DNA of 64,000 nucleotides from Sipunculus nudus (Eukaryota; Annelida; Sipuncula; Golfingiida; Sipunculidae), in NCBI GenBank assembly GCA_026874595.1, contig CM049307.1, positions 48,581,678-48,645,677 on the forward strand. Reading direction: 5' to 3'. The position numbers were made by a program, and so were the translations under genes. Numbering within the stretch: position 1 is the stretch's first letter; each line of letters begins with the position of its first letter. Of this stretch, positions 13,330 to 41,453 are shown piece after piece. The notes under the pieces were generated by a model. That model did not search any database. It was not told the DNA's origin and saw nothing but the letters and a program-made list of their open reading frames with translations.

Positions 13330-14680
13330 TTATATATCTCAAAAATAGAGGGAAAATGCGTAAACTTAAAAAAAATACAGGTGGCGCCACCAGTCTGCAG
13401 AAACTAATAAAAACACTTAATGGTCAATATCCATGCAAAGAATCATGGTGATCTGTGCATTAGTTGTTCAGATACTTCAGCTTTTGTATCTAATTGTCAA
13501 TTATTCTGAGGGATACTTCGGAGTCCTATAGCTTGAAGGATATGGGAAACAGAGACCTAATTTCAGGTATCCACAGACACTTTTCATGGGCCTCCTTGCT
13601 ATCAAGAATGAAGATTCTAGGTCCAGTTGTTACAATTTGTGCCACGTTAACAGATGAAGGCAACCATAAAGGTGTAAAAATAGAGAAAAATATCCGAAAA
13701 ATTGAATAAAATATAGGTGGCACCACCAGTCTGCAGAAACGGATGAAACACTCCATAATCAATATCCATGCAAAGAATCATGGTGATCTCTGCATTAGTT
13801 GTTCAGATACTTCAGCTTTTGTATCAAATTGTCCATTATTCTGAGGGATACTTCGGAGTCCTACAGCTTGAAGGATATGGGAAACAGAGACCTAATTTCA
13901 GGTTTCCACAGACACTTTTCATGGGCCTCCTTGCATGACAAGAATGAAGATTCTAGGTCCAGTTGTCACGATTAGTACCCTGTTAACAGATGACCACATC
14001 TTTAAATTTCTCAAAAATAGAGAAAAAAAATTGTAAAAATTAAAAAAAATATACAGATGGCGCCACCAGTCTGTAGAAACTGATGAAACATCTCATGATC
14101 AATATGTATGCCAAAAATCATAACCATCAGTGATGAAGTTATCGAGATATTGAAGTTTTTGTATGAAATTTTTTACTATTCTGGGGGGTATTTTGGGGCC
14201 CCATAGCTCGAAGGATATGGGTAACAGAGACCTAATTTCTGGTTTCCATGGAGACTTTTTATAGGTCTCTCAGTGTTTTAAGAATGAAGATTCTAGGTCC
14301 AGTTGTCACGATTAGTACCCTGTTAACAGATGACCACATCTTTAAATTTCTCAAAAATAGAGAAAAAAAATTGTAAAAATTAAAAAAAATATACAGATGG
14401 CGCCACCAGTCTGCAGGAACTGATGGAACATCTCATGATCAATATGTATGTTAAAAATCATGACCATCAGTGATGTAGTTAATGAGATATTGAAGTTCTT
14501 GTATGAAATTTTTTACTATTCACGGGGGTACTTTGGGGCCCCATAGCTTGAAGGATATGGGTAACAGAGACCTAATTTCTGGTTTCCAAGGAGATTTTTC
14601 ATAGACCTCTCAGAATGTCAAGTTACAAGATTCTAGGTCCAGCGGTTACGATGTGTGCCTGGTTAACGGACAGATGGTCG
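13330..14680 (+). repeat. 340-bp tandem core array, four units with GGCGCC palindromes
   Basis: Four head-to-tail units. The marker word GGTGGCGCCACC or a one-mismatch form starts at 13380, 13716, 14056 and 14396, so the period is 336, 340 and 340. Each unit carries CACCAGTCTGCAGAAAC or a variant, a GAGATAT-like word about 88 bases later, CTTGAAGGATATGGG, AACAGAGACCTAATTTC and AAGATTCTAGGTCCAG. Together with the tetranucleotide tail at 14664-14721 this looks like a non-autonomous element with tandem cores. Mollusc pearl/Helentron-like elements have this layout, but assignment to them is an inference. Confidence 0.85.
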
Positions 14681-14780
14681 GACGGACAGACAGACAGACG
14701 GAGAGACGGACGGACGGACGACGGACAAAGAGTGATCACAGATGACTTACATCAGCTGAGCTGAAAATATGTGACATTAG
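14664..14780 (+). mobile_element. ACGG/ACAG tail and 3' end of the tandem-core element
   Basis: The tandem array is followed directly by GGTTAACGGACAG and then by a run of GACAGACAG and GACGGACGG repeats to about 14721, ending in a short unique segment with ATCAGCTGAGCTGAAAA. A tetranucleotide microsatellite followed by a short end with an AGCTGA-type word is the layout I know from pearl/Helentron-like non-autonomous elements of bivalves. The exact 3' boundary is not fixed from this one copy. Confidence 0.55.
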
Positions 14781-14916
14781 ACATAACGATATAACTAGGG
14801 AATATCTCTGCCGAGTTGGTCTCGTCGCTTAAAATACAGTTTAAATCATTCAAGGGCACTCGGAGAAAGGTTCATATTTAGGTTTCCAGGATGCTATGCA
14901 AGGGAATGCTAACTGA

Positions 14917-15444
14917 CAGTGACGTAGGAGTCAAGTCCGGACTGGAAAGCGATTCCAGATTTGAGTCCTCTTTTTCAGGAGGGTTCTGGACTCAGACTTG
15001 TGCTCCGATACGTTGGTAAGGGCTCAAGGTGAATCCATATCGAGCCCAGTAGAATAAAAGCTCTGTCAAAAAATAGAGACATATATGTGAGAACTTCTCA
15101 CAGAATATTACTATAATATAATAATAAATTATATAAAAAATATAATAAATCACTAAAATAATAAGGCTAGCTAAGGATAGATGAGCTAAATGGGAGCTAA
15201 ATGAACGAAAATATTCAAATAAAAGCATGGGTAAACGTACTTTAAAAATAGCCACGATAATCTCAGATTTCCGTATCGAATTTCTTTTAAAAAGACGTTT
15301 TTGCATTAGACTCAGAATAAGAAATGGACTCGGGTTCCAAATGACTCGAAGAAGGTGGACATTGACTCGAAACTCGAGGACTCGAGTGGCCTGGACTCGG
15401 ACTTGCACTGGGACTCGGATAGTGTGGACTCGGCTACATCACTG
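14917..15444. mobile_element. hAT-type MITE, 528 bp
   Basis: Ends are CAGTGACGTAGGAGTC on the left and, reverse-complemented, CAGTGATGTAGCCGAGTC on the right. The 8-bp flanks CTAACTGA (14909-14916) and CTATTTGA (15445-15452) agree at 6 of 8 positions, consistent with an aged hAT-type 8-bp target duplication. Both ends contain dense ACTCG/GACTCG words; the centre is AT-rich. It has no transposase; the two overlapping frames of 138 and 76 codons across it look accidental. Confidence 0.7.
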
Positions 15445-15452
15445 CTATTTGA

Positions 15453-16599
15453 TCTGAGCTTGCATACCGGAACAAACATTCAAATCCATTAAAAATCACT
15501 ATCCATACATTGATCACGAGCTATTATTATCTATAGCCAAGCCATTTGCTCACAGCAATGTAGCATTACCGCCATGATCAAACTCTGCTGCTCATCAAAT
15601 ATTTAGGATGATTATGCCTGAGCTCCGCTCATAGTTTCAGGCCATAGTTCATAAAAAAGGTCTTTATTAGTACTTAGTCCATCGATATCTATACAGGCGC
15701 CATTTTCATAATCAAATTAACAAATGCAGGCAATATTAAGCACAGTTGCTTCCATATAGGAGGTTTGTAATGTACGCATTTTCTAAATTTCACGTCCGTT
15801 TTACTCTTGTTGCTGCTCCGATGCAGAGGGGCCAGAAAGTACTTCTCTGATGCAGAAGTATAACATTCATGTAAATATAAAAAGTGGTCATGTAGTTAAC
15901 AGATAATAAACGTAATTAGTAATGGTGAAAAACGAGATAATACAAAGAATAGTCACGCATGGGTTAATGCGTTGACTGCTTTCTGTTTGTCTCTTTAATT
16001 CAAAAGACTACACCCATTTTCCCAACCGGTATACAATGACCGTGTTATTTATTAAATGTTTGACAGCAAATAGAATTTTGTAACCTCCATAATATAGAGG
16101 TAAAAAGAGTAGTGGGTGGTATACGAAAGTTTACGACATTTTCCTTCTTCCTAAGACGTGGTGGCATGGCTTAACAGATGCGTGGCATTTGTTAAATATA
16201 GTTATCATGGTTTTCAGAAAATAAGCTAAAGCCAGCGCCTATGGTATGTTGTGACTGGCTTATAGACCGCTAATAAGTGTGAAAATAAAATCATTCTCCG
16301 ATATTAAATGTAATAATTACATACATAAAAACTTAAAGAATAGTATTTTGTGGCAAATTAAAGCCATTTTATGCTTGCAATATTAGGCATTGGTCCAAAA
16401 GAAGAAGAAAAGAACTAACGTTCACATTGTTCTCAAATAAAAAATAGCTCATTGCTATAATAGTTAAAGCCGAAAATCACCTGCTCCTTTCCTACAGAAA
16501 AGTGTGTGAGAGAGAAAATACCAGAGAGCATTTAGTATTATTGTCATCAAAATTTCACCTGCTTTATCTTATATATTTTTCCGTCCTATTCCAGAAAAG

Positions 16600-16600
<1 letters not shown>
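15453..16600. other. Intronic DNA without recognised elements
   Basis: No gene or clear repeat seen. Confidence 0.35.

Positions 16601-16653
<53 letters not shown>
16601..16653. repeat. (GA)n microsatellite
   Basis: Uninterrupted GA dinucleotide run of about 50 bases. It forces a run of Arg-Glu codons in the overlapping frames, which are not genes. Confidence 0.98.
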
Positions 16654-16656
<3 letters not shown>

Positions 16657-17611
16657 TGCTTTAATACAGCAAGGGAAATTAATAATAGGCATGCACTGGA
16701 AGCAGCTAAGTGTTGCAGAGGGCACTCAATCAAGTCTGCCAGATCCTGCGGATCGATGTTTGCTTTTCGGGGAACGAGGCAAATATCGAACAGGCGGGTT
16801 GGGGTTAAGAATACTAACTGCAATCCCACGCCGCCGTGTGTCTGTGACGGTTTCCACAGAGAGCGGGCCGGCGGGGTTGTGTTTATTCATGCGAGCCTCC
16901 ATCTAAATCATGCGTGAACGAATAATGTTCGGATGAAATCCTGCATTTATTTACCATGACCTGAACAAAGACTGCAAGGTCAGGCACAATACACATGTAT
17001 ATGGGTGCAATGGACATACCCATAGATTTATTAAATGACCATAGATTAAATTATTCATTATGGTTCAGGAACTGGCCCTTGGTGTATCAAATTTCTTAAT
17101 GTTCGAAAGACTTCGAGCTTCATGCCATGCCAAATTAATTTAATGAGGATAAGATTTCTGTATGTATACTATTAAAAATTCCAATAAAAACGGGAATCAT
17201 GGGGTAATAAACAGCTATGGTTTAAATCTCATCTGATATTTATTTTACGAAAACTTAATCTAAATCTGATAATACAATAAAATGTCTTAACATAATACCA
17301 AAGACATTATTGAGAGTCGTGCAGGCTTCTTCTGGTATCCATAACAACTATCAAACAACTAAAAAAGGTTTTACCTGTTCTAATATTCAGTATCTGAAAG
17401 ATAATTATGAAAAATAATATTTACATAAAAATCATATAAGAAATAGACTTATGAGAACTGTTTGTATCGACGAAGACAAGAGTATTGTTTACAATCTCAA
17501 AGATCGGTATTCTAATGTATTTGTATATTTATAATATCTAATAAAAATAAATATGTTATTTGAACATCAAACTAACCGCTGCTAACTTGGACAAGGTTAT
17601 AACAGTATTAA

Positions 17612-17817
17612 CAGGGGCGGATCTAAGATTTAGGAAAAAGGGGGGTCCAACCCAGGAGGATAAATGAAAACCTTAAAAAATTAGTCTTCAGGTCTGAAAA
17701 GGGGGGAGGGGTCCAGGCGGCAAAATTTTGTCTGAAGCCATTAAAAAAAGATGTTTCTGATGAAAAAGGGGGGGTCCGGACCCACTGGACCCCCCCCCCC
17801 CCCTTGATCCGCTTCTG
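17612..17817. mobile_element. Short MITE with CAGGGGCGGATC ends and G/C homopolymers
   Basis: The left end is CAGGGGCGGATCTAAGA; the right end, reverse-complemented, is CAGAAGCGGATCAAGGGG. Internal runs of G and C and the words GGGGTCCAACCCAGGA and GTCCGGACCCACTGGACC are typical of a GC-skewed small hAT-like MITE. The flanks (AGTATTAA and ATTAAATA) do not form a clean 8-bp duplication. A fragment with the same left end lies at about 52214. Confidence 0.6.
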
Positions 17818-20800
17818 ATTAAATACCAAGCTGCCCCCGGTCTGCTCCTTATGGAGTATTCCAAGCAATAAATCAAAACAAGAAATAAAAAAATAATAAT
17901 AGAATTGAAAGATAAAAAATAGAATCGAAAAGTTATTGTACATGTACTAACGAAAAATATGGACACCATTTATTTTCGATTAATGTATGCCAGTTAGAAC
18001 AATAGACAAGAGGAGAATAATAGAATATTTATACAGTAAAAAATGTACATTAGACAACTCTCGAACATTTGCTACCTTTCTGCTGTTGAAGATACTGGTA
18101 CTTTTGAAGTTTGCAAATATTTTCTCAAAACTGTTTATGTTTTCGGAACTCCTCAACAATTCTTATTGTTTACGCCTGAGCGGGTGTTATTTTTTGGATG
18201 AAAGGAACAGTCCGATCTCAGGGGTAAACTATCTATTTTGCCGAGAACTGCCAGACAATTTGGCAGACGACCGAAACAATATACCTTACCATTAACCATT
18301 TTGAGACAAGAGCTACATTTCTTTGTCTGTCTGTAGATCTATATGGCCTGTTATTTATTTAATGAAGGAAACTATTTTCTCTCTCTTCCTGGGAGGGAGC
18401 CTTCAGAGCAGTATCATTCTAAACTGTTAACTTTATATATCCGTAGAAAGTTGGGTAACAGAATTAAAAAAGATAAAGGCGTTTCTTATTTTCCAACTGT
18501 TCATCTGCCTTTTCTATCTGTCGTCTATCCGTCTCTCTCTCTCTTATTGCCCCAAAGATTCTCTACATAAAATATTTTAAATTGTACAAAAGTTCTTGAA
18601 ATTATATTTTTATGTCATGTAATATTTTATATGTACTAGACTTGTTCATTGGTCGGTCTTTTAAGCTCAATCCGCATTGCAATTGCTCACAGACTCACCG
18701 TTACTACTGACGATATATTTATTCTCCAAACGGTTCCAATTTTCCTTTCTTAAAGCAATGAGATAAACCATTACTTCTTGTACCGAACACACGTGGAAGA
18801 AAGCAAATATAAGAAGAGCTTTACGTGATCATTCGAATGTATACAAGCGTGTATACATATACCAAACAAAAACACGCCAAGTTTTGATATCTTTCTCAAA
18901 TTTATACTGCCAGTGACAAATGAATATAAAAATAACATTGTTGAAACAGTGAAACCTTTCTCGAAATCTTCCCTGAGCTAACTAAATCGGTCAGTTACGG
19001 TGTATGTCCTGAATTTAAATATTGTTAAATTAGATTTAATTCATATGCACATCATAAATAAATAACACCAACACACGAAAGGTTCAAAGAATATATTTCA
19101 TACAAGTTGTACCTATAAATATTCCTTTACACAGGGAGAAAATTGCTCATTTATCAAATCCATAATTAATCTGAATCCATAATTCCTTCATATATAAGTA
19201 GCATCAACATATTAACAGTTCAAAGAATACTAATATATTTTATATACAATAGAGATTAGCCTTTTTATAATTGTTTTCACACAGAGCACAAAACAGCTCA
19301 TTTATAATATTGTATAAATCCTTTTGTTTAACACCATAGTGTTTTTAATGAACGCTGTTGTATCGGAGACCAAAAAACAACAAAACTGATCTGACTAATG
19401 CGGAGGCTTAGTTCTTGCTATTCAAACCACACTTCAGCCATCCATCTCCATTAATTCTCGCAACAAAAGTGCTGTAAAGAAGAGCCCAAATAAATGCCCA
19501 ATACCTGAATCAACGTGGGAGCAAAGCATGAAGTTGCCGGCACATCAAAAGCACATCGTAATAAAACCTGTACCTGCGACGATGAATCAGCCAGATTAAT
19601 AATTAATGTAATCATATTTTGAACCCTGTCTACTGGAGTATGCAGATTAACTACCAGTGTGGATGGCGGCTCGATGAATCAGAGGTTTTGGGGTTGCCGC
19701 AGTGCCCCGTAAAAAAGCATCACTTCTGTCAGAGATTAAAATCAACTCCGTTTTACGCCCCATATTTCCTGTTTTATGTCCAGGCTCTTTTCTCTCTGTT
19801 ATTTTCGTTCCTCCCACACGTTACACACTTCTATTTTAGCTCTCTTTTAAAACTAAAGTGATTTCTATCAAATAACCTCTTTTTAATTTTAAATTATAAT
19901 AAAGATAGTTCATGCATACACTAATCTGTCCTTTGACAAAATGGATTAATTTGCTAATTAATTAAACAGAAAATGATTTAATTGATTATAAACAGAAGCA
20001 TAATTTAAATTAATTTTTTTAGTTTATTTAATTTTTCTAATTTCAATTCCATCACTCTGGACCAATAGTTTCTGGTACATAAAACTGCCTTTGGTGCACC
20101 GAATATGTTGTATGTAAATCACTAATATTATTATTTAATAACATGAAATAGTCATGTACCTAAATGATATCAGTAAAACGGTGTTGTGGTTTATGTAGTT
20201 TATAAAAATATCAAATTTACATCTCACGAATTTTGGATTTACTTGTCTGTTTATTCTGGACGGTTGTTTGCTTACATACACCTGCTACAACATTTAACAA
20301 TTACTCAAAACGTGATTGGTGCATAAGGCCGAATTTCCTCCGGTTAACACGCGGATGATGTCGACAATTCGTTAAAAACAAACCAACCACATTAGTCAGG
20401 TGTTTATTTAAGGTAAGCACAATCCAGCAACATCCCTATATCTAAAATCAGTCAACAAGTTATTTCAAATTCATATGAGAATACATTATTCTAAACCTAA
20501 CACGATTTTCTCCTTTTGTTTGCCTATATTTGAACTTTAAATTCATATTGACATGTTAATTTAACTTTTTTTTAGAAATTTCAAATTATAAGTCGTACTC
20601 TTTTTTAACACCCATTAACAGAAAGCTACTTTATAATGGACTAATATTAAACTACATGACAATTTCTCAAAGTCCATTTTCTTGTTTTCCTCTCTCAAAT
20701 TACAGGTTTTGGAGTTCTTACATGCTTTCCTTTCCCATTGACATTTCCTATGACTTGTACCTATACCAGAAGCTCCGATGCACTCAGAGGTGGTCGTGAC

Positions 20801-23800
20801 CTATAACCGATAGAACGTATTGGAGTCTGATTTAATCTAATCCTATTGGACAGAGGGGTTGAACATGTGTAAGTTAATTCCATGTTCCACTTGACACTGA
20901 TTTAAGAAGATACAGACGCCCTCTGTTGTGATGAATTGACAATTATTGAAGCAAAAACAAAATTACGTTCAGTAAACATTGCCTTATGTCATTACATAAT
21001 GTCATTAACTGTAACGGGAAAGTCGATTTTACCTTTGTTGATCAATGAAAGTCTTTCATTTTTTAACTAAATCACTGGCAAGATGTAAACAACATGGTAC
21101 GCTTATTAATTAAAATTTCTACTGATTGAGTCCGGTATTTAAGGAAAACACTATACAAATGAGGAGGTTGTTATTAAGAACCCTACATTTTGATTAATGT
21201 ATGTTCTCCTGTATATACAAGAACTGAACACGCACAGCAAATACCGAGTGAGGGTCAGGCACAGGCCTATATATATCAAGCACAGCACCGTCAGTGAGGT
21301 TGTTTTTTATAAACATATAGACAGGCATACGCTTTTTACTGAAACACAGCGGGAGTGGACGAATAAACCCAGGTTAATAACATCTCACATTGTAGCTTGA
21401 TAATTTTTATCTTAATGTTTTAGCGGTTATTGGGTACGAACTCCCGCTTTTTACTGGACCATGACTCAGACCTGTCATCTGTCCTCCAAAATGAATTGTC
21501 CCTACATCCCTGCATTCTCGATTCTTGATTGGAAAAACTTTTTTCCCTTTGTTCTACATCATGGACAGGAGTTTGCAGACAAAAGTACAGCATATCGTTA
21601 TAGGGCGAGGCTGTTTATCACCTTAGTGAATCTGCCCATGCAACGATAACTGCACTGCCTGGCATGTATGGTGATTATGATTATAACATCTCTTGATTGT
21701 CTTCAAGAAGACCATTTTCCCTAAGATAATGTACCAGTCCAACTATCATGTATTTCATCTTTTAGTGCTACGAACCAGCTGTCGTGTGTTCTCGTGGGAT
21801 TCTTTGGATAACCATAACAGTACCATTTCCCATATCGAAAATGGTGATGAAAAGGATGTTTTGTACGTTAGGATACAGTGATTTTGTCTTTTGGCAATAG
21901 AATGTACATAAATGATTGTAGCTGAATTGACTGTACGGGCCATATAACCATAAAAAGGCAAGTGCCAATAGGCATCAAACCTGTATCCGCGAAAAGGAAC
22001 ATACAAAATGTCCGAGAATCGGATCATATCCAGCTTATAGTATGCCCACTCTGATATTTTTATTACCAATATTACATTGACCGGCCAGTACAATAATACT
22101 AGCCAACGTCCTCATAAGATGTGTAATGGTGAAACAGCTTTATCCGAGGAATATTGCATCAGATACGAGGATATTGTAGTATCGTATGGTATGTTAACGA
22201 CACTATGTGCAAAAGCCATATCTCGCGTCTCAAATTCAGTGCACAAATTATTGTCCATTAAAATTAAGGGAAAATATTACATCAAAACCGTGGCGTGTTT
22301 CTACGTTAGAAGAACACTGATTGGTGAAACATAGTTAAAAATTGCAAGCACACATTCAAATATTCTCATCAATATTTCAACATTTATGTTTGGCTGAGCT
22401 CAATGGGTTCAGCAATGACGGAGGGTACCAGTCCATGAGAATGACCTAATCACCAAACGTCACAGAACTCCATGGTTACCGACTTCACAGAACAATTTTA
22501 AGCCTTGACTTTGTTTCTGACAATGATTCAGTTAAATCCCAAGGGAAGATAAGTGATATATCTTCCAGTAATTTTCAGACACATTCAACTTCCCATTGTC
22601 TAAGAATGTAGTCATATTCCTGATATATAAAAAAACAGATGCCAACATGACTAAAATAAGCCCGACTATTGTTTTTTCGGCGGTAGGGTGCCACTGAAAT
22701 TTGACAATATTTCCATAAACTGACAGATTAATTCTAAACGGTATGTTGCAATGAAGCATTGGGGTATAGGCCTAATAAAGTATAATGAAAATAAAGCAAT
22801 ACCCCGAAAAACACTATAAAATATGTAATGCAACAAAAATCAGTATCCGAGTAAACAGTCTCTTTTCGACAACATATCAACTCTGTTTAGAAAAAGGTCA
22901 AGGTCATGGGTCACATGCTCAAGCAACTACACTTAAATGCCCCTGATTGGTTGTTTAGTGTCAAAAATATTCTAAAAAATGTAACTATCAAAGTGAGGTT
23001 GCCAACCCATGACAGACGCCATGTCACTTCGCTACAAGTGTCAGAAGAACCAGAAGCATGTAAAATGTAAATGTTAGTATTTGTTATGAAGTTTTACACC
23101 CCATATTTTGCCGTTGGTCCCTCTTCAGCTTTTATGTCATAGTGTGTGATAATATTTAAGTCTATGATAATCGCCAAATTTCAATGGGCACGTACTGGTG
23201 AAACAGACAATAGTCAATGCCAAAAAGGCGTGGTTCAGGATGAAATTATAGTAAATTATATATCTAGTTGTGTTCGTTGATTAAACAACATTATTCCATG
23301 CTTTGAAAGTCCACTGGGATACATATCCATTACCGTACATGTATCATTCATGTTTTATATCTGGTACATTAGGCACACCCTATGCAAACCGTGAGCCCAA
23401 AGAGCAAGTTCCTTAATTCAGTTTTGTACATGTTCTTTGAACGAGTGCTGCCACATTTTTTTAACAAACGTTAAGTAAGTTGTATTTTATTTGATCGAAA
23501 CACGTTAAATTATTTATATATCTATTATCTACAGGTAATGGCCTCTGTACAGTCATGTGGCAACGGTCCCTGGTGTATTTTTGGTCTTGTATAAGTTAAT
23601 GTATTCGTCAAGAGGCAACGCAATACAACACTAGGCTTGCTTGTGTCAAAGTATTGTGTATTAGTTACAAAACCCCTTATATATGACTGATAATTAGTGG
23701 CCTATAGGTCCGAGTAAAATCATCAACATTGTTGTAACAAGTAAATTTTGCAGCCAGGCAAAGTTGGATTAAATAGTATCTAGATATGGATGTTATGATA

Positions 23801-23884
23801 ATTGTAATCATGGCTCGAATGCAGTCTTTCATAGTTACCGTAATTATAATATTGTTGTTGTAATTAAGATAAAACAGTACTTAC
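17818..23884. other. Intronic AT-rich DNA, mostly featureless
   Basis: Apart from a diverged duplication at about 19062-19305, I see no gene, RNA or transposon I can support. Confidence 0.35.
19062..19305. repeat. Diverged tandem duplication, period about 136 bp
   Basis: Two blocks share an ordered set of words: CAACA then GTTCAAAGAATA, then TTTACACAG or TTTTCACACAG, and GCTCATTTAT. The spacing between equivalent words is about 135-142 bases. Identity is low outside these words, so this is either an old duplication or a chance similarity in AT-rich DNA. Confidence 0.4.
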
Positions 23885-23948
23885 CTGAACAAAACAAAGT
23901 GGTCACGAAGAACAACGTAAGAAAGTCGAGTCGCCAACATTCGTCCAT
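23885..23948 (-). CDS. Signal-peptide first coding exon, probably of the Ly6/quiver gene
   Basis: On the minus strand an ATG at 23948-23946 opens 21 codons plus one base, followed by a strong GTAAGT donor. The peptide begins MDECWRLDF and has the hydrophobic core LTLFFVTTLFC, a typical secretory signal. It ends with one base (G) of a split codon. The exon at 516-683 starts with the two missing bases, so the join reads on in frame to a plausible signal cleavage region just before IDCFSC. No other minus-strand exon in between fits as well. Linking the two exons is an inference from phase, order and protein logic, and requires an intron of about 23.2 kb. A possible acceptor (CTTTGTATTTAG) lies about 40 bases upstream of the ATG on the minus strand, so a 5' noncoding exon may exist. 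Confidence 0.6.
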
Positions 23949-24015
23949 ATTCACATGCCGATGACCATTGATGAAATCTTAGGGCTAAATACAAAGGTAT
24001 GTCCGTGAACTCGAC
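23949..24015. promoter_or_regulatory. Putative divergent (head-to-head) 5' region
   Basis: Only 67 bases separate the minus-strand signal-peptide ATG (23948) and the plus-strand ATG (24016). The sequence from about 24060 to 24240 is clearly richer in CG dinucleotides than its surroundings, as expected near an animal promoter. There is no obvious TATA box. Whether the two genes share a promoter or have overlapping 5' ends cannot be decided from sequence alone. Confidence 0.4.
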
Positions 24016-25886: not shown

Positions 25887-25893
25887 ATGTTAC

Positions 25894-30597: not shown

Positions 30598-30601
<4 letters not shown>

Positions 30602-30643
<42 letters not shown>
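30602..30643. repeat. (AT)n microsatellite
   Basis: About 20 AT units following the SINE fragment by some 60 bases. Confidence 0.97.
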
Positions 30644-30645
<2 letters not shown>

Positions 30646-30664
30646 AATAAAATAAACAATCCAT

Positions 30665-32443
30665 ATAAAATAACGTTTAGCTAGCTTATAATGCGTGCGT
30701 GGCAGGATAAAGACATATAAGAAGCTCACACTTGTCAGATTCTATATGCCTACTGTGTACGCATTGAAATTTTGCTAAAAGTGTCTTTTTCATTAACACT
30801 TCCAATGTTAAAATCCTGTGAAATTTGTTTAATACTGCATTATCAAATGAAAGTGTTATTTGCTGAGCTATATTTTATTATATTAAATTTTCTGCTTTCT
30901 TCTGTTTGATTTCCCTAGAGGCGATGGATGAAAGAAATTTAGCTATTATGTCTGGTTTCAAATTTGGAAAATTCTACGATCAACTTCACATTCATGTAAA
31001 CCTTTGTTAATGAAGTTTAGAAATATCAAATTGCAGTGCTGAAATTTACAATACACATACTGGTAACATGTATTTGAACACCATGCGTGTTTCCAAGGAA
31101 AATCGTATCCATAAATCATTTAGACTACATGCATGCATGACAGGATACGCACATATGTTGAAGCTCACACGTGTTTGATGTACAGATTCTTTGCTTCTGT
31201 TGCCATAAGGTGATGGCTTTCACACTGTATGCTGGCATGAAGACAGAAACAGCACACTTTTAGAGGAGCATAACATGTTGCTGTATGCTACCTTTGTGCT
31301 ATAGTGATGAATGCATGATATACTCAACTTACATGTAGATACCTTTGCAGATTGCTAATATTGTGATGTTATGATGATGCTCGTACAAAATAATAAACAT
31401 GTATCAGTAAAATATCACTACGTTTTGCTGGGATGCCATTTTCGTGATATAAAAATTTTTCGAATTTAACGAGTTGGAATACAGTTTGCATGGTGTTGGT
31501 GTCAACAAAATACTTTCATTTGCTAGTAGTTCATACATGTATTATTAGAATATTTACCACATGTATCAAACTTTAGGGGTCAGTGCTGCCAGTGTTCAAG
31601 CCAGCTTATCGTTGAAGTTTCAGGGATGTATGATGAGGGAATGAAAAAGCAAGGCGCAAGATGGAATTTCGAATTCACACCACAAGGTTGAAAAATATAA
31701 TAAACCCATAGGTTCCAGACATACATTTTGTCTTCATCACCTAGATTATATCAAAATTCAGTACAAAGTTTGGTTTGAGTTTTCATTGACTTGATTGGTG
31801 AATGTAACGGTTCTGTGCTTTAAGCTGCTGTGCTAAGAATTTTCTCTGCTTTATGCCCATATGCAGAATGTTTGGGAAACTTTCATTTCATACCACATGC
31901 TTCATCAAGTGAACATATATCAATGAGAATAGACTAATTCTGAATATTATTCCTGAACATTATTACTGCTGAAGAGAATAGTTTATTACATAAAATTTTG
32001 TAATATTGCCATCAACTTTTTTTCACTTATGCCTGAATATTTTCTTTTAGATCTAACAGGACAATAATGTTTTCTTCTGGTAAATCACACACAATTCCAA
32101 TTTACTAACTATCGGTTCTGTTTATCTTAGGTGCAAGGCTCAGTGCGATCTACAATTTTGCATCATGTGCACATGGTGATTATTTTTTTTTTCAAATAAA
32201 TGTAGTAAATATTTTTTTGTTATTATATTTATAAATACATGTAAGTAATATAAAATGTGTGCATTATGTAAGCAAATGAAGTATTTTAAGCAGTAACGGT
32301 AAATGCAAAGGCAATGTCAGCTTATTGGTAAGGATAATATTACCATATCACCAAAGTAGCGGGTAAATTACAAACTGCACAAGTATCTGCAAGTTTGCTG
32401 ATTCCACATGCATAATCACCACATTACAAATATAGCATATCAA
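30665..32443. other. AT-rich DNA without recognised elements
   Basis: A splice-acceptor-like TTTATCTTAG at about 32131 is followed by a short cysteine-rich frame ending after 15 codons. It is phase-compatible with the exon ending at 25138, but too short and too far away to support as an exon. Confidence 0.3.
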
Positions 32444-32644
32444 GGGGTAGGACGTCGCCTAGTGGTTAAAGCTTTGGACATCGGAGTTGTAGGTGCACAC
32501 TTCGAACTCCGTTCAGTAGGGACGGCTAGATCAAGGAGAGGAGAACCACTAAAACCCACTCCCATAGCAACACCGATTATAGAACCTTCGTCGCCAGTGG
32601 AGAGAGCCGAGCGTTTTATACAACTCAATAAATTGAATTGACAC
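32444..32644 (+). mobile_element. tRNA-derived SINE, second family
   Basis: The head GTCGCCTAGTGGTTAAAGC fits a tRNA D-arm/A box very well, and CACTTCGAACTCCG about 40 bases later is a B-box-like word. The tail ends in an AATAAATTGAATTG stretch. The internal body differs from the 41.7-kb SINE, so this is a separate family. No target duplication recognised. Confidence 0.7.
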
Positions 32645-32779
32645 AGTGTTCAAATATTTGAAATGATCATATATTTTAAATTTCAGCACGGGATTCAACA
32701 AAAAGTTTTTCCGTTCCATGTGCATGAAAAAGTCAATTAAGCACAATTATAATACCATATAAAATCAGATTTCATTCAC

Positions 32780-33045
32780 AGAGTCATTATACTGACTTGA
32801 AACCCATATAAATGAATTTCTCGACCCCAAAAACATAGAAATAGTGCACTTGCAATATATTCTAGGACAAATAACACCGCAAATATTGTTATTTCATAAT
32901 TCGGCGGCCATCTTGTCCGCCATCTTGGATTTCGACCAAGATATTCTGAATTCCGCTTGGCCATATATCTTGAAATACTGAGTATGGTCTGGACTACTAT
33001 TATTCCAAGTTTCATTCATCTTTTATCTTTTACACAATTCTTTTA
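32780..33045 (-). repeat. Dispersed repeat rich in CAAGATGG words, copy 2 (inverted)
   Basis: Inverted relative of 29590-29850. On the minus strand it reads GGCCAAGCGGAATTC, then AAATCCAAGATGGCGG, then CAAGATGGCCGCCG. By eye about 80% identical to copy 1 over about 260 bases. Confidence 0.75.
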
Positions 33046-33109
33046 TGTATGCAGCTTAACCGATGGGAATATTACCGAACTCTTGTTATAGAAACAAAAA
33101 ATGAGTACC

Positions 33110-33345
33110 TGGAGAGGTTTTGAACTTCAAAAATTAAATTTCTTGGCCCAAAAAACATAATAACTTTCTAGCGACATAATAACTCGAGTTATTGACATTT
33201 TTTAATCCGGCGGCCAAGATTTTGGCCAAGATAGTTTATTTTCAGCTTGGCCCTATATCTGAAATTCACCATTAAGCTCCAAAGAGCAGTTTTGGAAACT
33301 TTCATGCTTCTTTCATTTTTTTGCACAATTCCTCCAAATATGGGA
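33110..33345 (-). repeat. Dispersed repeat, diverged copy 3
   Basis: Same orientation as copy 2 and just beyond it. On the minus strand it shares GCACAATT-type start words, ATATAGGGCCAAGC, CTTGGCCAAAATC, TTGGCCGCCGGATT and a GGGCCAAGAAATT end. It has diverged much more than copies 1 and 2, so the family has at least two subfamilies here. Confidence 0.6.
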
Positions 33346-34029
33346 CCTTAACCTCTGGACTATCACTTGTGTACAGGAGTACTCAAATGGTTTACAATGA
33401 AATATTAGCAGATACCATAATATTTTAAGGAGAAAAAAACAAGCTATGTGTATTAAGCATTGAACACTATATGTGTTTATCAAATATACTTGGTATGTGA
33501 ATAGGTACATTTAATATAACCAAAAAAAATTATTTTAGACAATCCCAAACTAGTCAAAGAACTAAGTTTGTGTGTTTAGTATGTAAATACATTCCAAAAA
33601 GAACCTTTCCTATCCTCATGTCCCAGCTTACTTTGTTTATTTTTCGGTCAAAGTTTATTTATTTAACATTTTAAATTCTATTTTAATACAAGCTGAAAGA
33701 CATGTCAAAACTGAATAAAAAAAATTGGCACCATGTTTTTAAGGCTTCATAGAAAGGTGAAGAACAAAAATGCATGGGGTGTCACATTTTTACAAACAAA
33801 ATTTACTCAAGACGAATTTGCTACATATGCCCCCACAGTAAAACGTCCTTTTCAAAACTCAGCTTCATCTTTGCTTGCCGCCAGATGTATACTTGTTGAC
33901 TGTGTTTTCCATTATTTTAGCCCCCCATCTTTTATAAACACACGGATATGAACAAAACGAACAACCTGTCTGCGCTGGGATCGGGGCTTTCTGCCCTCTT
34001 TTTTAAAAAGGTTTCAAGGGATTATCTAA
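33346..34029. other. AT-rich DNA, nothing recognised
   Basis: No supported gene or repeat. Confidence 0.35.
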
Positions 34030-34757
34030 AGGGCCCAGTCACATATAAAGTATGTTTAATTAACATGAAACATAGCGTGTTCTCTTTTTAAAAAATTGGG
34101 ACCTGTAAAAAATATTGAGACCGTTTGCTTACTCCTGTACATGAGTGTTTAAAACATTGGACCGGGCGCGTTCACAGGCGTCAATAAAAAAGCAGCGGGT
34201 GGGGCTATGTGTACGGCCCGGGCACAACACCGTCTGCAACACCTATATCAATAAGGAGATGCCCTGACTGACTTGGCCAATAAGAACGTAATACATGTTC
34301 TCGCTGGCTAAACATCGCGTCTTTAGGTTTCCCATGGACCGGATGCACGGGCTCACTCTGTTCGTGTCATTTCACCTGAGATTCCTAGGCCTATTGTACA
34401 GATCTGGACCGTAATGTCCATTCAGCAGAGATATATCAGAGGACACGAAGGTCCATGTGTATGTATGGACTAGTTTGAAATAGTCCTTGTATGGGATCTA
34501 TCTCGCATGCGCACAATCGGACCTCCGGTCACGCGGCCTTGTTATGGTAAACAGAGACACGTGGACTGTGTTCACTCTCAACGCAGGGTCAAAACAAGGT
34601 GTTAAACAGCCATGTTGAAGGTGCTAAGACTGTGTGCTGGGATGGTTTTGCTAGGAAACTATTATAAAAAGCAAAACTGGATTAATAATGTGAAAGAATG
34701 ATAATAATGTTCCCAATAAATCCCTTTAATAAACGCAAGATATCGAAATAGGCCCCT
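34030..34757 (+). mobile_element. TTAA-type MITE, copy 2 (both ends visible)
   Basis: Left end AGGGCCCAGTC after CTAA (34026-34029), right end AATAGGCCCCT before TTAA (34758-34761). The reverse complement of the right end (AGGGGCCTATT) matches the left end of copy 1 at 7771. Body blocks are shared with 7771-8310 in the same order. Between about 34330 and 34505 this copy holds some 170 bases with no equivalent in copy 1, which is either an insertion here or a deletion there. Non-coding. Confidence 0.8.
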
Positions 34758-35354
34758 TTAAGCTTTCCATATCTGTGCCAATTTATGAAGAATAAAGAGG
34801 AAAAGGCGCCTAGTACGTTTTTCTTAGTTTGCAGCATTTAGCTTTATTTCTAGTTGAATCTGCCGATAGAAGAAACACGTATTAGAATTTATATGTCACA
34901 CTAGGTGACATAAGTTTGATAATAGGAACGCAAAAGAAAAGAAATTAAATGTGGAGAAGGAAACTGTACGTTACGCTCCCCCCGCTGACATCCTTTCGAG
35001 TAACAAGGGGCGTCAATATAAGGGGGATATTCCCATCCCCCCTAACACACACACTTTTGTAGCAAGCGGGGGGTGGTCAATGTAAACATTCCCCACCCAA
35101 TAATATTTATTATATAATTCAAATAAATATATAAATATATGGGATTATAGAATTTGGTTCCATTTATCAGTTTAATATGAAGTATTATATCTAAACCTGG
35201 TTAGGAATTAACTTATGCTGGAAACATAATACCTTATTTCCTAAACCTTATAGGTATTTGTAATATATTTGAAATGTGATTAAGTATATATAATTGAAAT
35301 GTGTCATACAGGCGCTAATATATTTGACATTTGTCATGCATACATAAATTTGTC

Positions 35355-35394
<40 letters not shown>

Positions 35395-37288
35395 CTGCGA
35401 GTCATACCCTACTCCCCACCCTGGAAGATAAATTGACGTCACTGCGTGTAACCGCTGCTTTGTATGGCAAGGTTTTCGGCTGAAACACCAGGGTGCGCAC
35501 AGAATTGTAATCAGAGAGCTGAAAGCATAGTACTGCATTTTGCATCCAACTAAAATTTTTAACATGTGACATTCGTGACCATAGATCCCAGAAAGGGGTT
35601 ATCAGACAAACGGGAGCGAATGTCGCATGTTTAAGATTTGGGCTGGTATTTAACCGTTGCGAGAGAAACTGCACATGGGAACCTACTTAACTTTGCTAGA
35701 AATGCCATTCTGTTGCGCCTCTTGAAGGAGAGGTGTCAAGAAATTCGTATATTATAAAATTAATTCGTTTAAACACCATATTAATTTACTGCTCCGGCTT
35801 GTTTCTCATATTGAACAGAAATATAAAATTCCAAAATCATCACCAGTAACAAATTTATAGGAACATTCGTGGGACAGAATATAGCAAACAGGTGATTTCA
35901 GTCAACCAGCCACAAGTCCATACAATCTCATCTTCTTATTATTGATTACACTATTACAGGTATTTCCGTTGGGACATGTCCTAGCTCATTTGTCCAAGAC
36001 GGGGTTTTCTTTGGCCGGGTTGGTACACGGCCACGTTTTCAATGTCCCGAGCTGGATATACTGGCTAAGTTTCTGATAGATTGCTCTGGGATAGGCACTT
36101 TTCGAAATAATGTAAATTGCTCTGATATTTTTCGGAAATTATGGAAAATATTACTGTTTGGTTTGCCCGGGATTTTAACCGGAGCATTAATCTTTAACCC
36201 TCATCCTAAAAAAGGTAACTTTTTCCTGGAAAATATGTCATTACATTGTATTACATGTTGTCATTGTCACGCGATACTAACACTTGCGCACGCTACATAT
36301 AATATTTTGTGCGTGTGTCCTATACGAGCCACCGCAAAACATATATGTACAATTCTAGTCATTAGAGATTAGTACTGATACTTATCTTTTACACAACCTT
36401 TTAGAGATATATTATAAACAGGTCATAATATAGACAGAAAGCCAGATTTTGAATGAAACTATAACTTTAATAGAATTTCCACTTATAGATTTAGTAATAC
36501 TGTTGGTTTTATCTCGATCATAGATGGTTCCTGATTTTTTAATTATTAATATGTTTTATTATAAAAAAAATAATAAACTGTTAAGCCATTAATACAGATA
36601 CTAACCACAAACGTGTCTTTTTAATTTAATAATTTTAATAATTTTGGCTCGGTGATATTCAGTCCTGGCCAAACCTTCGGACAGTCACAATCGTTCGTCT
36701 TGCAGTACAAGGGCCCATCGGTGGTTATGCATCACCTTATAGCCGCGGCGTTAAATAGGGGCAAGTTTTATATTCCACCGGCCCGTAGCCGGAGCCAGTC
36801 AAGTCAGATGATGTGGTTCAGCGGACTGTGGGGGATTAACAATGAATAACTGTAATTCCACACGCAGGCCAGACCCTTGCACTCATTTTGCGAAGTGAAA
36901 ACCCTGCTCAAAAGTCCTGTCGACACAAGGCTTGAAAGAGAACATGAATTATATATTAACATCATCTGAATTGTAGTCTGGCATTTTCATTTGATTCAAG
37001 CGGCTTGGAAGGCCCGTGACCGTGCACTGGGTTCTGACTAATGCATCGCTGCTATTAAAAGCCATGTACGGCGGTAATTAGCTAACAGTCGCCTCTGGTA
37101 TGACGGGGTATGTACAGGCACGCGTTTATGGTGGTGTTGTTGGTCTGAACGCAGGTATAATTCCAGTGATATCATCTAAGGCATGAGAATCAAAATGCTG
37201 TGTTAATCATAAAAGAACATTGGAGATTATGACATCAATAAGAGTATTATCAATACAATAATTTAGTGATATTAGTAATATAAGTAGC

Positions 37289-37290
<2 letters not shown>
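34758..37290. other. Mixed DNA with one unexplained 158-codon frame
   Basis: Holds C/G-rich patches at 34975-35100, an (AT)n(GT)n run at 35355-35394, and a plus-strand frame open from 35896 to 36371 (see findings). No recognised gene. Confidence 0.35.
35355..35394. repeat. (AT)n(GT)n microsatellite
   Basis: About six AT units followed by about 13 GT units. Confidence 0.97.

Positions 37291-37340
<50 letters not shown>
37291..37340. repeat. (AAT)n microsatellite at the left edge of the palindrome-cored element
   Basis: Trinucleotide run ending directly before the left end CTAGAATACGGG of the element at 37345. The related copy at 40020 has the same kind of run on its left. Confidence 0.95.
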
Positions 37341-37341
<1 letters not shown>

Positions 37342-37344
37342 TAA

Positions 37345-37872
37345 CTAGAATACGGGCAGTCGACAAGCGACTACGTTTGTCCGCCAAACCACAGGAGCAT
37401 GGGTAAAGTAAGGCATTGAATGTTTATGACATAAAAGAGTCCAAATTTGTGGAATCAGTTTTAGCAATTAAACTCCTCATATATGTGCATTTTTTCAACA
37501 AAAACAGATCTACAGATGGATACACCTGTTTATTTGGATACACACAGATTTCAGGCTAATGCGGCAAACCACTCCTGAGGAAAGGGTCATCAATGTATTC
37601 TACGAAAATGGGCAGGTAGGTGGGGCCACCTGTATGATCTACGAGATTACTCTCCAAAATGAATGGACATGCCAAATTTCAGACAAATACATCGAACCAC
37701 TCCTGAGATATGAGCAATTTTCTCCAAAAGCAATCGTACGGATGTATGCCACGCAAAAACAATTGCAGATGGTACCATCAGTATTGAGTACGAGATGGAG
37801 GTAGGTATCAAAGATCTATGGACATGAAAAATTTCAGCCCAATACCTTGAAGCAATACAATACAATGGATAC
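37345..37872 (+). mobile_element. Palindrome-cored tandem element, copy A (short)
   Basis: The left end CTAGAATACGGGCAGTCG, with hairpin AGTCG-ACAAG-CGACT and then TTTGTCCGCC, matches copy B at 40020. The interior holds one clear core unit: GGTGGGGCCACC at 37619 and TGAGATATGAG 86 bases later (37705), plus a truncated CCACTCCTGAG at about 37570 from a preceding unit. The right end ATGGATAC at 37872 corresponds to GGCGGATAC in copy B. It is flanked by AAT-type repeats on both sides. No transposase. Confidence 0.65.
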
Positions 37873-37916
37873 AATAATGACAATGATGATGATGATAATG
37901 ATAATACAGTAGAACC

Positions 37917-38083
37917 TGTCTGAAAGAGCACCTGTCTAATCAGACCACTTGTCTATTAAGACCACCCTTCTGTTAACCGAAAACATTCATGTTGGTTATA
38001 ACGGACCTGTCTTATAAGACCATTGTAAATTTAGACCACTTTCGGCCAATTCCAAGGTTGGTTTTATTTTATAGGTTTCACTG
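37917..38083. mobile_element. Small pogo/Tigger-like MITE, 167 bp
   Basis: Left end CAGTAGAACCTGTCTGAA directly after TA; the right end, reverse-complemented, is CAGTGAAACCTATAAAAT. CAGTRRAACCT-type termini with a TA target are characteristic of pogo/Tigger (Tc1-mariner group) MITEs. Internal GACCACTT words repeat. The right TA is not intact. Confidence 0.65.
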
Positions 38084-38086
38084 GAA

Positions 38087-38112
38087 TGATAATAATAATA
38101 ATAATAATAATA

Positions 38113-38163
<51 letters not shown>
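38087..38163. repeat. (AAT)n microsatellite
   Basis: About 25 trinucleotide units with one AGT interruption; forces poly-Asn or poly-Tyr frames. Confidence 0.97.
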
Positions 38164-38164
<1 letters not shown>

Positions 38165-38729
38165 GGATTAAGAAGTTTCATTGCGATAGTAAAGTATATC
38201 TCCGCCAGGTGGCAATATATTAGTTTGACCGTTTATTAATCACTCGGTTAGTTGGCTTCTCTCTAACTTTATTCAGTAACTTTTTAGTATCAGAATCATG
38301 AACGGATTTTGAAGAAAATTTCAGGTGAGCTAGGGTAATATAATATGAAGAAACCATTGAAGTTTCGAGAAGTTCTGGATCACCATCATATGTCTTAATT
38401 CAAAGGATACTCTGCCATTGTGAAGTAAATCAATTTTTTTTTTGGTTCCCCAATCTGAGTATCGGACGTTAATGCGGTTTCATAACTTTATCAATCTTCA
38501 TTTTGTGAATATTGTCCGGTAAAAATTGTTTGGCAATGTGTAGAAATATTTTGAACATTCGCGTTACGTCATATGTGTGCATAAATATGATCCCTAGAAG
38601 AGGCTATAGTGTCAGAATTAAAGCTCAGTGAGCTGGATACTAGATTTAAAAAGCCTTAGTTCTATCTTAATTGCTGTCATCAAACATTTCGTTTTGGGGT
38701 TTGCCTCCCCCCTCCAAACAAGATTGAAT

Positions 38730-39222
38730 CACAGGCTCTTGAATCCCTGTGGGTGCAAATATTGGCTTAGACAATTTTCAATCAAACATAAAAACAGTTC
38801 CCTACACTTTTCTGGTGGCTGAACCAGTGAATATACATGTTAGTAACTTGTTCACATAAAAAAATACAGGGCCGGCATCTTCATTTGCAACTGCATTGCA
38901 TCCATTAATTTGCAGACCCGCACAGAATGATATGTAATTTTTTGATTAGGCTCTCATAATTATGCGGGATGCCAGCCTATATATATTATATATTTCTTGT
39001 TAAGATAGTCAATCACAAGATGACAAAAAATTCTGTGCCGGAGTACCAATGAATGAATACAATGCAGTTGCATTTGAAGATGCCGGCCTTGTATTTTTTT
39101 TCATGTAAATAAGTTACTTATTCATTTTTAGCGCTTAGAAAAGGGTAGGAGATTGTTTATCCAGTTGATTGAAAAATGCTTTTAAGCCAATATTTGTACC
39201 AATAGGGATTCAAGCGCCTATG
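38730..39222. mobile_element. Decayed copy of the long-TIR MITE
   Basis: Ends CACAGGCTCTTGAATCCC and GGGATTCAAGCGCCTATG match the termini of 25231-25886, as do the internal words ATATTGGCTTA, CAGTTCCCTACAC, GGGCCGGCATC and GATGCCGGCC. The 7-bp flanks ATTGAAT (38723-38729) and ACTTAAT (39223-39229) agree at five positions. The arms are strongly diverged, so this copy is much older. Confidence 0.75.
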
Positions 39223-39654
39223 ACTTAATTTACCTTATAGCTGTAACAAGAATAAATAATAATCCTCCCTCCAAACAAGACTTTATAAAAATGATGACAG
39301 AGCGATCTTTGTTATCTTCATTAGTCAAATTGTGTTGACATTAAAACATTGAAATAGGGCTGTTTTTACTTAACTCTGGTCTGGAAGCGATCGACCGGGA
39401 ACACAAACAGACTGTACCCATATTTGCCGCACGCTTGTATCACTCAAAAAGCACAACGGGGACAATCAAGTAAACATTCTGTGTTTTCTTAACCGTTTCA
39501 TACAACGCTGTATTTTGAAAAGGTAATTAATTACGGTGAAATATGTTTTATTTCCATTTTATTGCACTATGGTTCATGTATCAATGATATCACAATATTT
39601 TTCTGTAGCATTAACGATATCCGTCAGTAATTTGGCATCAAATCAGTTGAACTT

Positions 39655-39810
39655 GTACCTCTTTCACACACAAAACGTTTTCAAACCGGATATCTAGCAC
39701 TAATGCGTGTTGTGTCCATTTTACATGTGGAACAATTTAACAACATGCTTACACAACACAAGCATTTGCGCTTCTGCTGTGACCGAATTGCTGCTGCTTG
39801 AAAAATAGGC
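39655..39810. mobile_element. Fragment of the CCCCTTTCAC-type MITE
   Basis: CTCTTTCACACACAAAACG, TTTTCAAACCG, TTACATGTGGAACAATTTAACAA and CACAAGCATTTGCGCTT match the left part of 41571-42239. The right end is missing. Because it matches the SINE-interrupted copy on both sides of the SINE, it acts as an empty-site reference for that insertion. Confidence 0.65.
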
Positions 39811-39933
39811 CAAACCGGCAATGAAGGCTGCTCAGTGCGCATCCCGCTGTCGGCCAGCTGTCGAACCTAGATGCAAAAGTCTCAGAGCAGAGAGGGGAAT
39901 CATGATTTACTATTGGTAAAAAGTGTTACAGAA

Positions 39934-40019
39934 ATATAATAATAATAATAATAATAACAACAACAGTAATAATCATAATAATATGATGATATTAATAATA
40001 ATAATAATAATAATAATAA
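39934..40019. repeat. (AAT)n microsatellite, interrupted
   Basis: AAT-type run broken by AACAACAACAGT and ATGATG words, ending directly at the left end of the element at 40020. Confidence 0.95.
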
Positions 40020-41453
40020 CTAGAATACGGGTAGTCGACAAGCGACTACGTGTATCCGCCTAAATCAGAGTGGAACGGGTGAAGTGAGGCATGGATTAAG
40101 TGGCAAGGGGAAATAGAGTGAAGTGTTGCATATTAGCATGGATGTCTGCAGCCAAATTGTGTATGAAGGTTGCCCCCCCCCTACCACAAAATCCAGAAAG
40201 CCGTCCAAGTTGTATACATATGCAAAATTTAAGGCAGATAAGTCAAACCACTACATGTATATGAGTGATTTTAGCCCGTGGCAGACAATCAGATGGAAGC
40301 TGAGCAAAAATGGTTGAAAGAAGTATGTGAGAACAATACACATGCAAAACTTTGGCCCAACCGGTCAAACGGTTCCCGAGATATGAGCTTGGATGTCTGC
40401 TGCATAAACTAGAATGCAGGTGACGCCACCTGTCATAAAATCAAGAGAGCTGTCGGGGATGTTTAAACCTGCAAAATTTTAGCCAGATTTGTCAAACCAC
40501 TGCCGAGATATGAGTGATTTTATCCCATGGCAGACAAACAGACAGGAGCTGTGCAAAAATGGCTGCAGGTGGCGCCACCAGTTTTGCGTATGATAAAGAG
40601 CTATGTGAGATCGATACACATGCAAAATTTAGGCCCAATCGGTCAAACGGTTCCCGAGATATGAGCTTGGATGTCTGCAGCGTAAACGTGAATGTAGGTG
40701 GCGCCACCTGTCATAAAATCAGAAAAGCTATCCAGGATGTATACGCATGCCGAATTTCATGTGAATTAGTCAAGTCACTGCAGAGATATGAGTGATTTTA
40801 ACCCAAGGCAGACAAACAGATGGACACTGTACAAACATGGTTGCAGGTGGCGCCACCATTTTTGTGTATGTTATAAAGCTCTCCAAGGGCTACATTTGTG
40901 CAAAAAAATTTTCCTGATCGGTTAAACGGTTCCCGAGATATGAGCTTGGATGTCTGCAGCGTAAACGTGAATGTAGGTGGCGCCACCTGTCAAAAATCAG
41001 AAAAGCTATATAGGATGTATACGCATACCAAATTTCAGGTGAATTAGTCAAGTCACTGCAGAGATATGAGTGATTTTAACCCAAGGCAGACGAACAGATG
41101 GACACTGTGCAAACATGGTTGCAGGTGGCGCCACCATTTTTTGTGTATGTTATAAAGCTCTCCAAGGGCTACATTTGTGCAAAATAATTTTCCTGATCCG
41201 TCAAACGGTTCCCGAGATATGTGGGTTTATGTGTGGAAACAGACGCACAAACAGACGCAGAATGCAGAGGAAAGGTCAGAGGTCAAAACAAAATCGGGGC
41301 GCAGCAGTTCACATGTGACCCGAACATAATCCCAGGTTTCGTAAAATTCCGCCCAGCGGTTACGGAGGAGTTCTCCGGACACCTACGCGGCGGCGGCGGC
41401 GGCGGCGTGCAGCTGAAAACATAGTATCCGCAAAACTCCGTTTTGGCGGATAC
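40020..41453 (+). mobile_element. Palindrome-cored tandem element, copy B
   Basis: Left end CTAGAATACGGGTAGTCG with hairpin GTAGTCG-ACAAG-CGACTAC, then GTGTATCCGCC. The right end is a second hairpin (GTATCCGCAAAAC pairing with GTTTTGGCGGATAC, one bulge), so TATCCGCC and GGCGGATA form short inverted termini. The body is an alternating dimer array: palindromes GGTGGCGCCACC (first one imperfect) start at 40419, 40568, 40697, 40846, 40976 and 41124, spaced 149, 129, 149, 130 and 148. Each is followed 86-88 bases later by GAGATATG. A (GGC)n run lies at 41390-41406. No transposase. The hairpin-bounded, tandem-core layout suggests a non-autonomous rolling-circle or unclassified element. Confidence 0.8.

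Follow-up and report, generated by a model that had tools for sequence, protein, structure and literature searches.

A palindrome–GAGATAT module in the tandem arrays of candidate HINE-type rolling-circle elements of Sipunculus nudus

The DNA analysed is a 64,000-nucleotide stretch of Sipunculus nudus contig CM049307.1 (assembly GCA_026874595.1, positions 48,581,678 to 48,645,677 of the forward strand), hereafter the window, and all sequence results below refer to this single 64-kb window. It is AT-rich (GC 0.33–0.40 in 4-kb steps) with many microsatellites. Tandem Repeats Finder (TRF) detects arrays at 13.3 kb (the 13-kb array) and at 40.4 kb, the latter inside an element designated copy B; a shorter array at 37.5 kb lies in a second element, copy A. 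All three carry a module composed of the palindrome GGTGGCGCCACC followed downstream, at a nearly constant distance, by the word GAGATAT. Coordinates of the arrays, of the elements and of the individual modules (13a–13d, A0–A2, B0, B' and B1–B6) are collected in Table 1.

With at most one mismatch, GGTGGCGCCACC is found 11 times in the window, always inside one of the three arrays. Allowing three mismatches raises the count to 21, against 5.44 expected (100 shuffles, maximum 13). GAGATAT occurs 27 times against 10.09 expected. It lies 85–90 bases downstream of nine of the 11 palindromes; in the remaining two modules its place is taken by CAGATAC, at a distance of 89 in 13a and of 88 in 13b; the chance rate of GAGATAT is about 0.0017 per 6-base slot, a window rate in which the modules themselves are counted. 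Successive palindromes are 336, 340 and 340 bases apart in the 13-kb array and 149, 129, 149, 130 and 148 apart in copy B. The palindrome to GAGATAT spacing in copy B tracks the monomer type, being 85–86 in B1, B3 and B5 (148–149 nt to the next palindrome) and 88–90 in B2, B4 and B6. An earlier note on this DNA had listed four palindrome/GAGATAT pairs at almost the same distance, with ATGCAAAATTTAGGCCCAAT at 40.6 kb and ATGCCAAAAATCATAACCAT at 14.1 kb as blocks between the words. The four pairs are correctly placed, both blocks were found where they had been put, and the near constancy of the distance is borne out by the counts above.

Four further modules (A0, A2, B0 and B') are decayed, some of them having no palindrome or no GAGATAT. 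A possible relic of the A0 palindrome, GATGGATACACC (37515–37526), has four changes and lies too close. Compared to B2, B' misses about 29 nt across the palindrome (40310–40320), as though the palindrome had been deleted. That the 340-bp unit might consist of two 170-bp halves was rejected, the self-similarity that this implies not being found. Some palindromes contain CAGGTG/CACCTG, which we take to be E-boxes, or a AGGTGGCGC string presumably like part of a CTCF site; the AATTTCA...GAGAT stretch is, we assume, like the 3' tails of some retroelements.

Copy B can be shown, from its sequence features, to have the anatomy of a HINE, the Helentron-associated type of non-autonomous rolling-circle transposon in the Helitron superfamily. 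It has subterminal inverted repeats (subTIRs) at both ends (TGTATCCGCC and GGCGGATACA), a 5' inverted repeat (IR) complementary to the subTIR and then a microsatellite, and, between the 3' subTIR and the 3' terminus, a short palindrome. On the minus strand its 5' end reads TTGTATCCGCC, then the complement GCGGATAC, the GCC run and the array; its 3' end reads GGCGGATAC, the hairpin, CTAG and T. The 5' fold-back is strongly favoured over shuffled sequence (fragment 41420–41460, z −6.07, equalled by 0 of 200 shuffles); the 45-nt fragment of the 3' end folds with z −2.30 (equalled by 3 of 200). Copy B also shares with canonical Helitrons the 3' CTRR and, some 11 nt before it, a palindrome of 16–20 nt; their 5' TC end is absent. 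As to insertion between two T residues without target duplication, as in HINEs, a T follows the 3' end, which base marks the 5' boundary is ambiguous, and the triplet repeats on the two sides are inverted: (AAT)n stands on the left (39936–40019) and (ATT)n on the right (41455–41527).

The left (3') ends of copies A and B are identical at 40 of 45 bases, so that, on sequence grounds, the two are minus-strand copies of one family, whose ends are made of CTAG, the hairpin and GTATCCGCC. The earlier note had counted three different elements; A and B being one family, two families remain.

The second family would be represented by the element carrying the 13-kb array. As in HINEs, a (GTCY)-type microsatellite adjoins the central array, and it stands on the side expected for an element oriented like A and B. 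The candidate ends of this element comprise a 14-bp palindrome with a match of 8 bp next to it, non-significant alone. A stretch within a B unit (40809–40825), CAGACAAACAGATGGAC, is like this GTCY-type microsatellite.

The module is probably a single collinear segment of about 100 bp, to judge by multiple alignment, in which it starts at the palindrome, contains few gaps and extends slightly beyond GAGATAT. A profile built from A1 and B1–B6, palindrome included, matched all four 13-kb modules (E values of 9e-8, 7e-7, 1e-5 and 3e-5), and the reciprocal profile built from the 13-kb modules matched five B modules (E 2e-5 to 0.013); much of the score of these palindrome-including profiles is the palindrome. 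The register of the segment between the words was assessed by gap-free shifting with the words excluded, a 45-nt right half being anchored on GAGATAT/CAGATAC and a 36-nt left half on the palindrome. For profiles derived from A/B, shift 0 was the best of five for both halves in all four 13-kb units. After correction for five shifts, window positions that scored as well made up a proportion of 5e-4 to 3.4e-3 (right half) or 0.027 to 0.051 (left half), the background positions including the A/B modules. Within A/B, pairwise spacer alignments were matched by only 0 to 3 of 500 shuffles. Common descent is thus clear for the A/B modules as far as alignment can tell; for the 13-kb and A/B modules, collinear common descent is likely, not proved, and the spacer alone lends it moderate support.

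The explanation that we consider probable is that two rolling-circle families of HINE/Pearl type carry a repeat monomer of old origin, of which the module represents the core. This monomer would be satellite-like and tandemly repeated in the middle of non-autonomous elements, with the module as its conserved core, and the 13-kb array would belong to a second HINE-like element oriented as A and B. The elements would have been moved through rolling-circle copying by a helper with Rep/helicase, and rolling-circle or unequal exchange may have expanded an ancestral monomer, made of the palindrome, about 75 nt and GAGATAT, into the arrays. The outer parts of the monomer would then have been replaced or have diverged, leaving the core recognisable. 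That the two words are better preserved may be due to a part played by them in copying or tandem amplification, or possibly to a bound protein. Descent combined with array homogenisation inside rolling-circle elements is the likeliest account.

Several observations weigh against common descent inside such elements. Concerning the carriers, the ends of the 13-kb element are tentative; only three inverted matches of 10 bp (at most one change) join its flanks, they overlap one another (13007–13019 with 14830–14842), lie away from the candidate ends and look like chance. The 5' end of copy A is degenerate or truncated, unrecognisable but for GGATAC. The inverted (AAT)n/(ATT)n flanks of copy B are not explained by simple insertion into one microsatellite, and no helper gene was seen among the 15 of 58 open frames of at least 85 amino acids that were scanned. 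Concerning the module, the palindrome-including 13-kb profile matched A1 and B1 only partially (E 0.48 and 1.9). The A/B profile without the palindrome gave E 0.053, 0.16 and 0.82 for 13-kb units, the fourth being unlisted; without both words it gave 0.17, 0.31 and 1.0, and an unrelated site at 61881 scored better (E 0.13). For the reciprocal 13-kb profile, the best A/B match had E 0.38 once the palindrome was removed, and no A/B module was matched up to E 5 once both words were. Pairwise alignments of the 13-kb spacer, words excluded, were equalled by 292 of 500 shuffles and 441 of 1830 genomic segments for A, by 164 and 332 for B-even, and by 31 and 5 for B-odd. As tandem copies, the four 13-kb units are non-independent.

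A rival reading is that the spacers are unrelated and just two short words recur, by convergence or chance, in the 13-kb array and in A/B; the alignments with A and B-even, no better than shuffles, and the spacer-only profile matches, at E 0.17–1.0 in one direction and absent in the other, speak in its favour. Such an origin has difficulty with the coincidence of register, shift 0 being best for left and right halves in four of four units (with the non-independence mentioned). It also has difficulty with the palindrome-less A/B profile, for which 13-kb units are three of the four best matches outside A/B, within about 3 bases of the expected register, the best match in the reversed window having E 0.34. 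Recurrence by chance is regarded as improbable. The proposal of the earlier note that one ancient module sits in several elements is to this extent upheld for common descent, by the register and by the reciprocal palindrome-including matches, and is weakened by pairwise spacer tests that are mostly non-significant; likewise, the alignment of units as profiles that it had called for succeeds reciprocally with the palindrome and breaks down for the 13-kb spacer-only profile.

The relative conservation of the words bears on a different account, in which both are kept by function: a protein, either the Rep of the transposon or a host DNA-binding factor, would bind the palindrome and/or GAGATAT at fixed spacing while the spacer drifts. 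With A2 left out, between-group identity is 0.91 for the palindrome and 0.93 for GAGATAT versus 0.45 for the spacer (0.43 for upstream and 0.34 for downstream sequence), and within groups it is 0.90–1.00 for the palindrome versus 0.76–0.77 for the spacer, as function would predict. The spacer value is depressed by the scoring of gap columns as differences, and the alignment behind these figures leaves out B0, B' and A0. Inclusion of A2 brings the between-group values to 0.82 for the palindrome and 0.66 for GAGATAT against 0.46, and inside the 13-kb group GAGATAT identity is only 0.81. Moreover, most modules were found through their palindrome. A set less dependent on it, recovered by the spacer-only A/B profile at E < 0.1, holds 11 A/B modules, seven of which are the profile's own training rows. 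Their palindromes are exact in five (B2–B6), have one change in two (A1, B1) and four symmetric changes in A2, and are decayed (B0), deleted (B') or unrecognisable (A0) in the other three; GAGATAT is lost in B0, A2 and A0. Losses of either word sit in units at or beside array edges, a distribution that fits homogenisation of the inner units as well as selection. That the palindrome changes less than the spacer, which the earlier note had proposed to test, is true of these numbers, and is undercut by the ascertainment and by the three lost palindromes.

The A2 palindrome GATGGTACCATC (37768–37779) differs from GGTGGCGCCACC by four changes, all symmetric, so that it is still a perfect palindrome. 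The chance that four random changes are fully symmetric is 0.003, or 0.03 if all changes are transitions. This test is post hoc and concerns one unit; moreover, quasi-palindromes corrected by template switching would show the same symmetry without selection. Maintenance of both words by function is, taken together, considered unlikely. It is likewise unlikely that the module works as a cis-element to which the rolling-circle machinery or a host factor binds, and which was kept across families during turnover of the surrounding sequence and acts as a portable signal for tandem amplification.

The tandem units of 130–340 bp and the CTGATGA string present in some 13-kb units also recall small structured or self-cleaving RNAs such as a hammerhead-bearing tandem retrozyme. 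No Rfam match at gathering score was obtained over the whole window, nor any up to E 5 over 13000–15000; between 37200 and 41600 there are five sub-threshold matches, none of which overlaps a module. Eight folds (four modules, both strands) gave z from −1.39 to 0.41 with DNA parameters only. At the sensitivity of these Rfam searches and DNA-parameter folds the ribozyme or RNA reading was rejected, and it is deemed very improbable.

Table 1. Features of the arrays, elements and modules in window coordinates. Palindrome, first base of GGTGGCGCCACC with at most one mismatch unless remarked; distance, bases from palindrome to GAGATAT.
Feature	Position	Strand	Palindrome	Distance	Remarks
13-kb array	13329..14642	− (inferred from microsatellite side)			340-bp unit, 3.9 copies
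(GTCY/GTCC)n-type microsatellite beside 13-kb array	14666..14727	−			ACGG/ACGGACAG on +
Tentative 3' end, 13-kb element	13195..13220				palindrome TGACCCATGGGTCA 13195–13208, then GCTCAGCT 13213–13220; non-significant alone
Tentative 5' subTIR/IR fold-back, 13-kb element	14752..14764				TCAGCT-g-AGCTGA; non-significant alone
Module 13a	13376..13477	+	13380		
Module 13b	13712..13812	+	13716		
Module 13c	14052..14152	+	14056	88	GAGATAT 14144
Module 13d	14392..14492	+	14396	88	GAGATAT 14484
Copy A	37345..37873	−			3' end complete: CTAG, hairpin (one change); right boundary approximate
Module A0, fragment	37546..37579	+			GAGATAT lost; E 0.00087 with palindrome-less A/B profile, 0.07 spacer-only
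Module A1	37616..37714	+	37619	86	GAGATAT 37705; profile match
Module A2	37764..37859	+	37768		palindrome is GATGGTACCATC; GAGATAT lost
Copy B, putative non-autonomous rolling-circle (HINE-like) element with array	40020..41454	−			CTAG, hairpin, subterminal IRs, 5' IR; exact 5' base uncertain
Copy B 3' terminus CTAG	40020..40023	−			T next on minus strand
Copy B 3' hairpin, 19 nt	40031..40049	−			7-bp stem, 5-nt loop, 11 nt from end
Copy B 3' subTIR GGCGGATACA, 10 bp	40051..40060	−			
Module B0	40165..40269	+			spacer retained; palindrome and GAGATAT decayed
Module B'	40313..40388	+			palindrome region deleted; GAGATAT intact at 40378
Module B1	40414..40515	+	40419	86	profile match
Module B2	40564..40665	+	40568	88	profile match
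Module B3	40693..40793	+	40697	86	profile match
Module B4	40842..40944	+	40846	89	profile match
Module B5	40972..41071	+	40976	85	profile match
Module B6	41120..41223	+	41124	90	array stops directly past GAGATAT
Copy B short (GCC)n microsatellite near 5' end	41387..41407	−			read in sequence; absent from TRF list
Copy B 5' fold-back, subTIR + complementary IR	41424..41453	−			
Copy B 5' subTIR TGTATCCGCC, 10 bp	41445..41454	−			

Other features of the window are an inverted repeat at 38858–39100 (90-nt arms, 81% complementary, 63 nt apart), which is like a miniature inverted-repeat transposable element and whose sub-threshold Rfam match to MIR530 is probably due to the fold only, and a tandem array of a 40-bp TTGTTCCATCC-type unit at 44979–45717 (18.5 copies, TRF), in which the module profile search found no match. 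Two adjacent open frames at 59821–61470, with a stop between them, correspond to successive parts of a Mutator-like transposase (PF20700), one match being slightly below and the other right at the cut-off score.

The word pair is absent from the full-text literature searched; published consensus sequences may be confined to figures or supplements. The 12-mer palindrome had a bacterial chitinase paper as its sole full-text match, and five longer module words matched 12 papers, none on repeats, as judged by listing. Two pattern scans of genome contigs returned no match. In viral contigs, the pattern palindrome-N62-90-GAGATAT is present in three stretches (GAGATAT at 76, 86 and 84), which look like ordinary phage coding DNA in the parts read, with a sequence between the words that is unlike the module by eye, and were taken as chance; one of them, the only one so checked, has two short tandem repeats, unrelated. 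The pattern CATGCMAAATTTCA...GAGATATGAG is present in one AT-rich viral stretch, with no tandem repeats and no upstream palindrome in the part read, and was likewise attributed to chance. The collections scanned being viral and prokaryotic, these scans say little about animals.

The module offers a concrete, alignable case of a repeat core common to rolling-circle families and bears on the origin of satellite DNA from transposons. If selection on both words held true genome-wide, the suggested role of such motifs in satellite amplification would become testable. The sharing of a core is itself a fairly ordinary further example of what has been described in oysters and clams.

Many oyster satellites are linked to Helitron elements (PMC8268682, PMC11136912). 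One array type occurs in different Helitron elements (PMC12628747). Copy B has its parts in the order known from HINEs, namely left subTIR, IR and microsatellite, then right subTIR and palindrome (PMC7492417; PMC4067079). Cg_HINE of Crassostrea gigas has, as here, the left subTIR with complementary IR and microsatellite, the right subTIR followed by a palindrome, and a central satellite-like array (PMC7492417). Several Cg_HINE have (GTCY), (GTCC) or (GTCK) microsatellites, as found beside the 13-kb array, and the oyster monomers CL1/2/10/13 and CL4 have two relatively conserved segments in common and are otherwise dissimilar (PMC7492417). The commonest Cg_HINE units are of 160–180 bp and those described here of 129–149 and 336–340 bp; the likeness is by description, not by sequence (PMC7492417).

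DINE-1 and the HINE-Mo families of mites share with copy B subTIRs, a 3' palindrome and, in some of their copies, tandem repeats; their T-rich insertion may be a further likeness (PMC4067079). Unlike them, copy B also has the CTAG end of canonical Helitrons. The 3' subTIR of HINE-Mo lies 38–60 bp from the 3' terminus (PMC4067079); that of copy B, at about 31–32 nt if CTAG is the terminus, is outside this range. In DTC84 of Donax trunculus, which is likewise modular and has tandem repeats inside it, a conserved palindrome stands close to the junction of the repeats (PMC5139131); in the window the array ends do not coincide with the palindrome. BIV160 and Cg170 are members of a large family in which two motifs are well conserved despite the divergence of the monomers, and related repeats are found in the Pearl element CvA (PMC5139131). 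This resemblance too is by description: for BIV160 the sequence comparison covered two PCR (polymerase chain reaction) primers only, whose best sites in the window (6 of 25 and 5 of 21 mismatches) lie outside the arrays and are at chance level, the reversed-window control giving 8 and 5 mismatches. It is with these oyster and clam repeats, diverged monomers that retain two conserved motifs inside Helitron-like elements, that the module of S. nudus is best compared.

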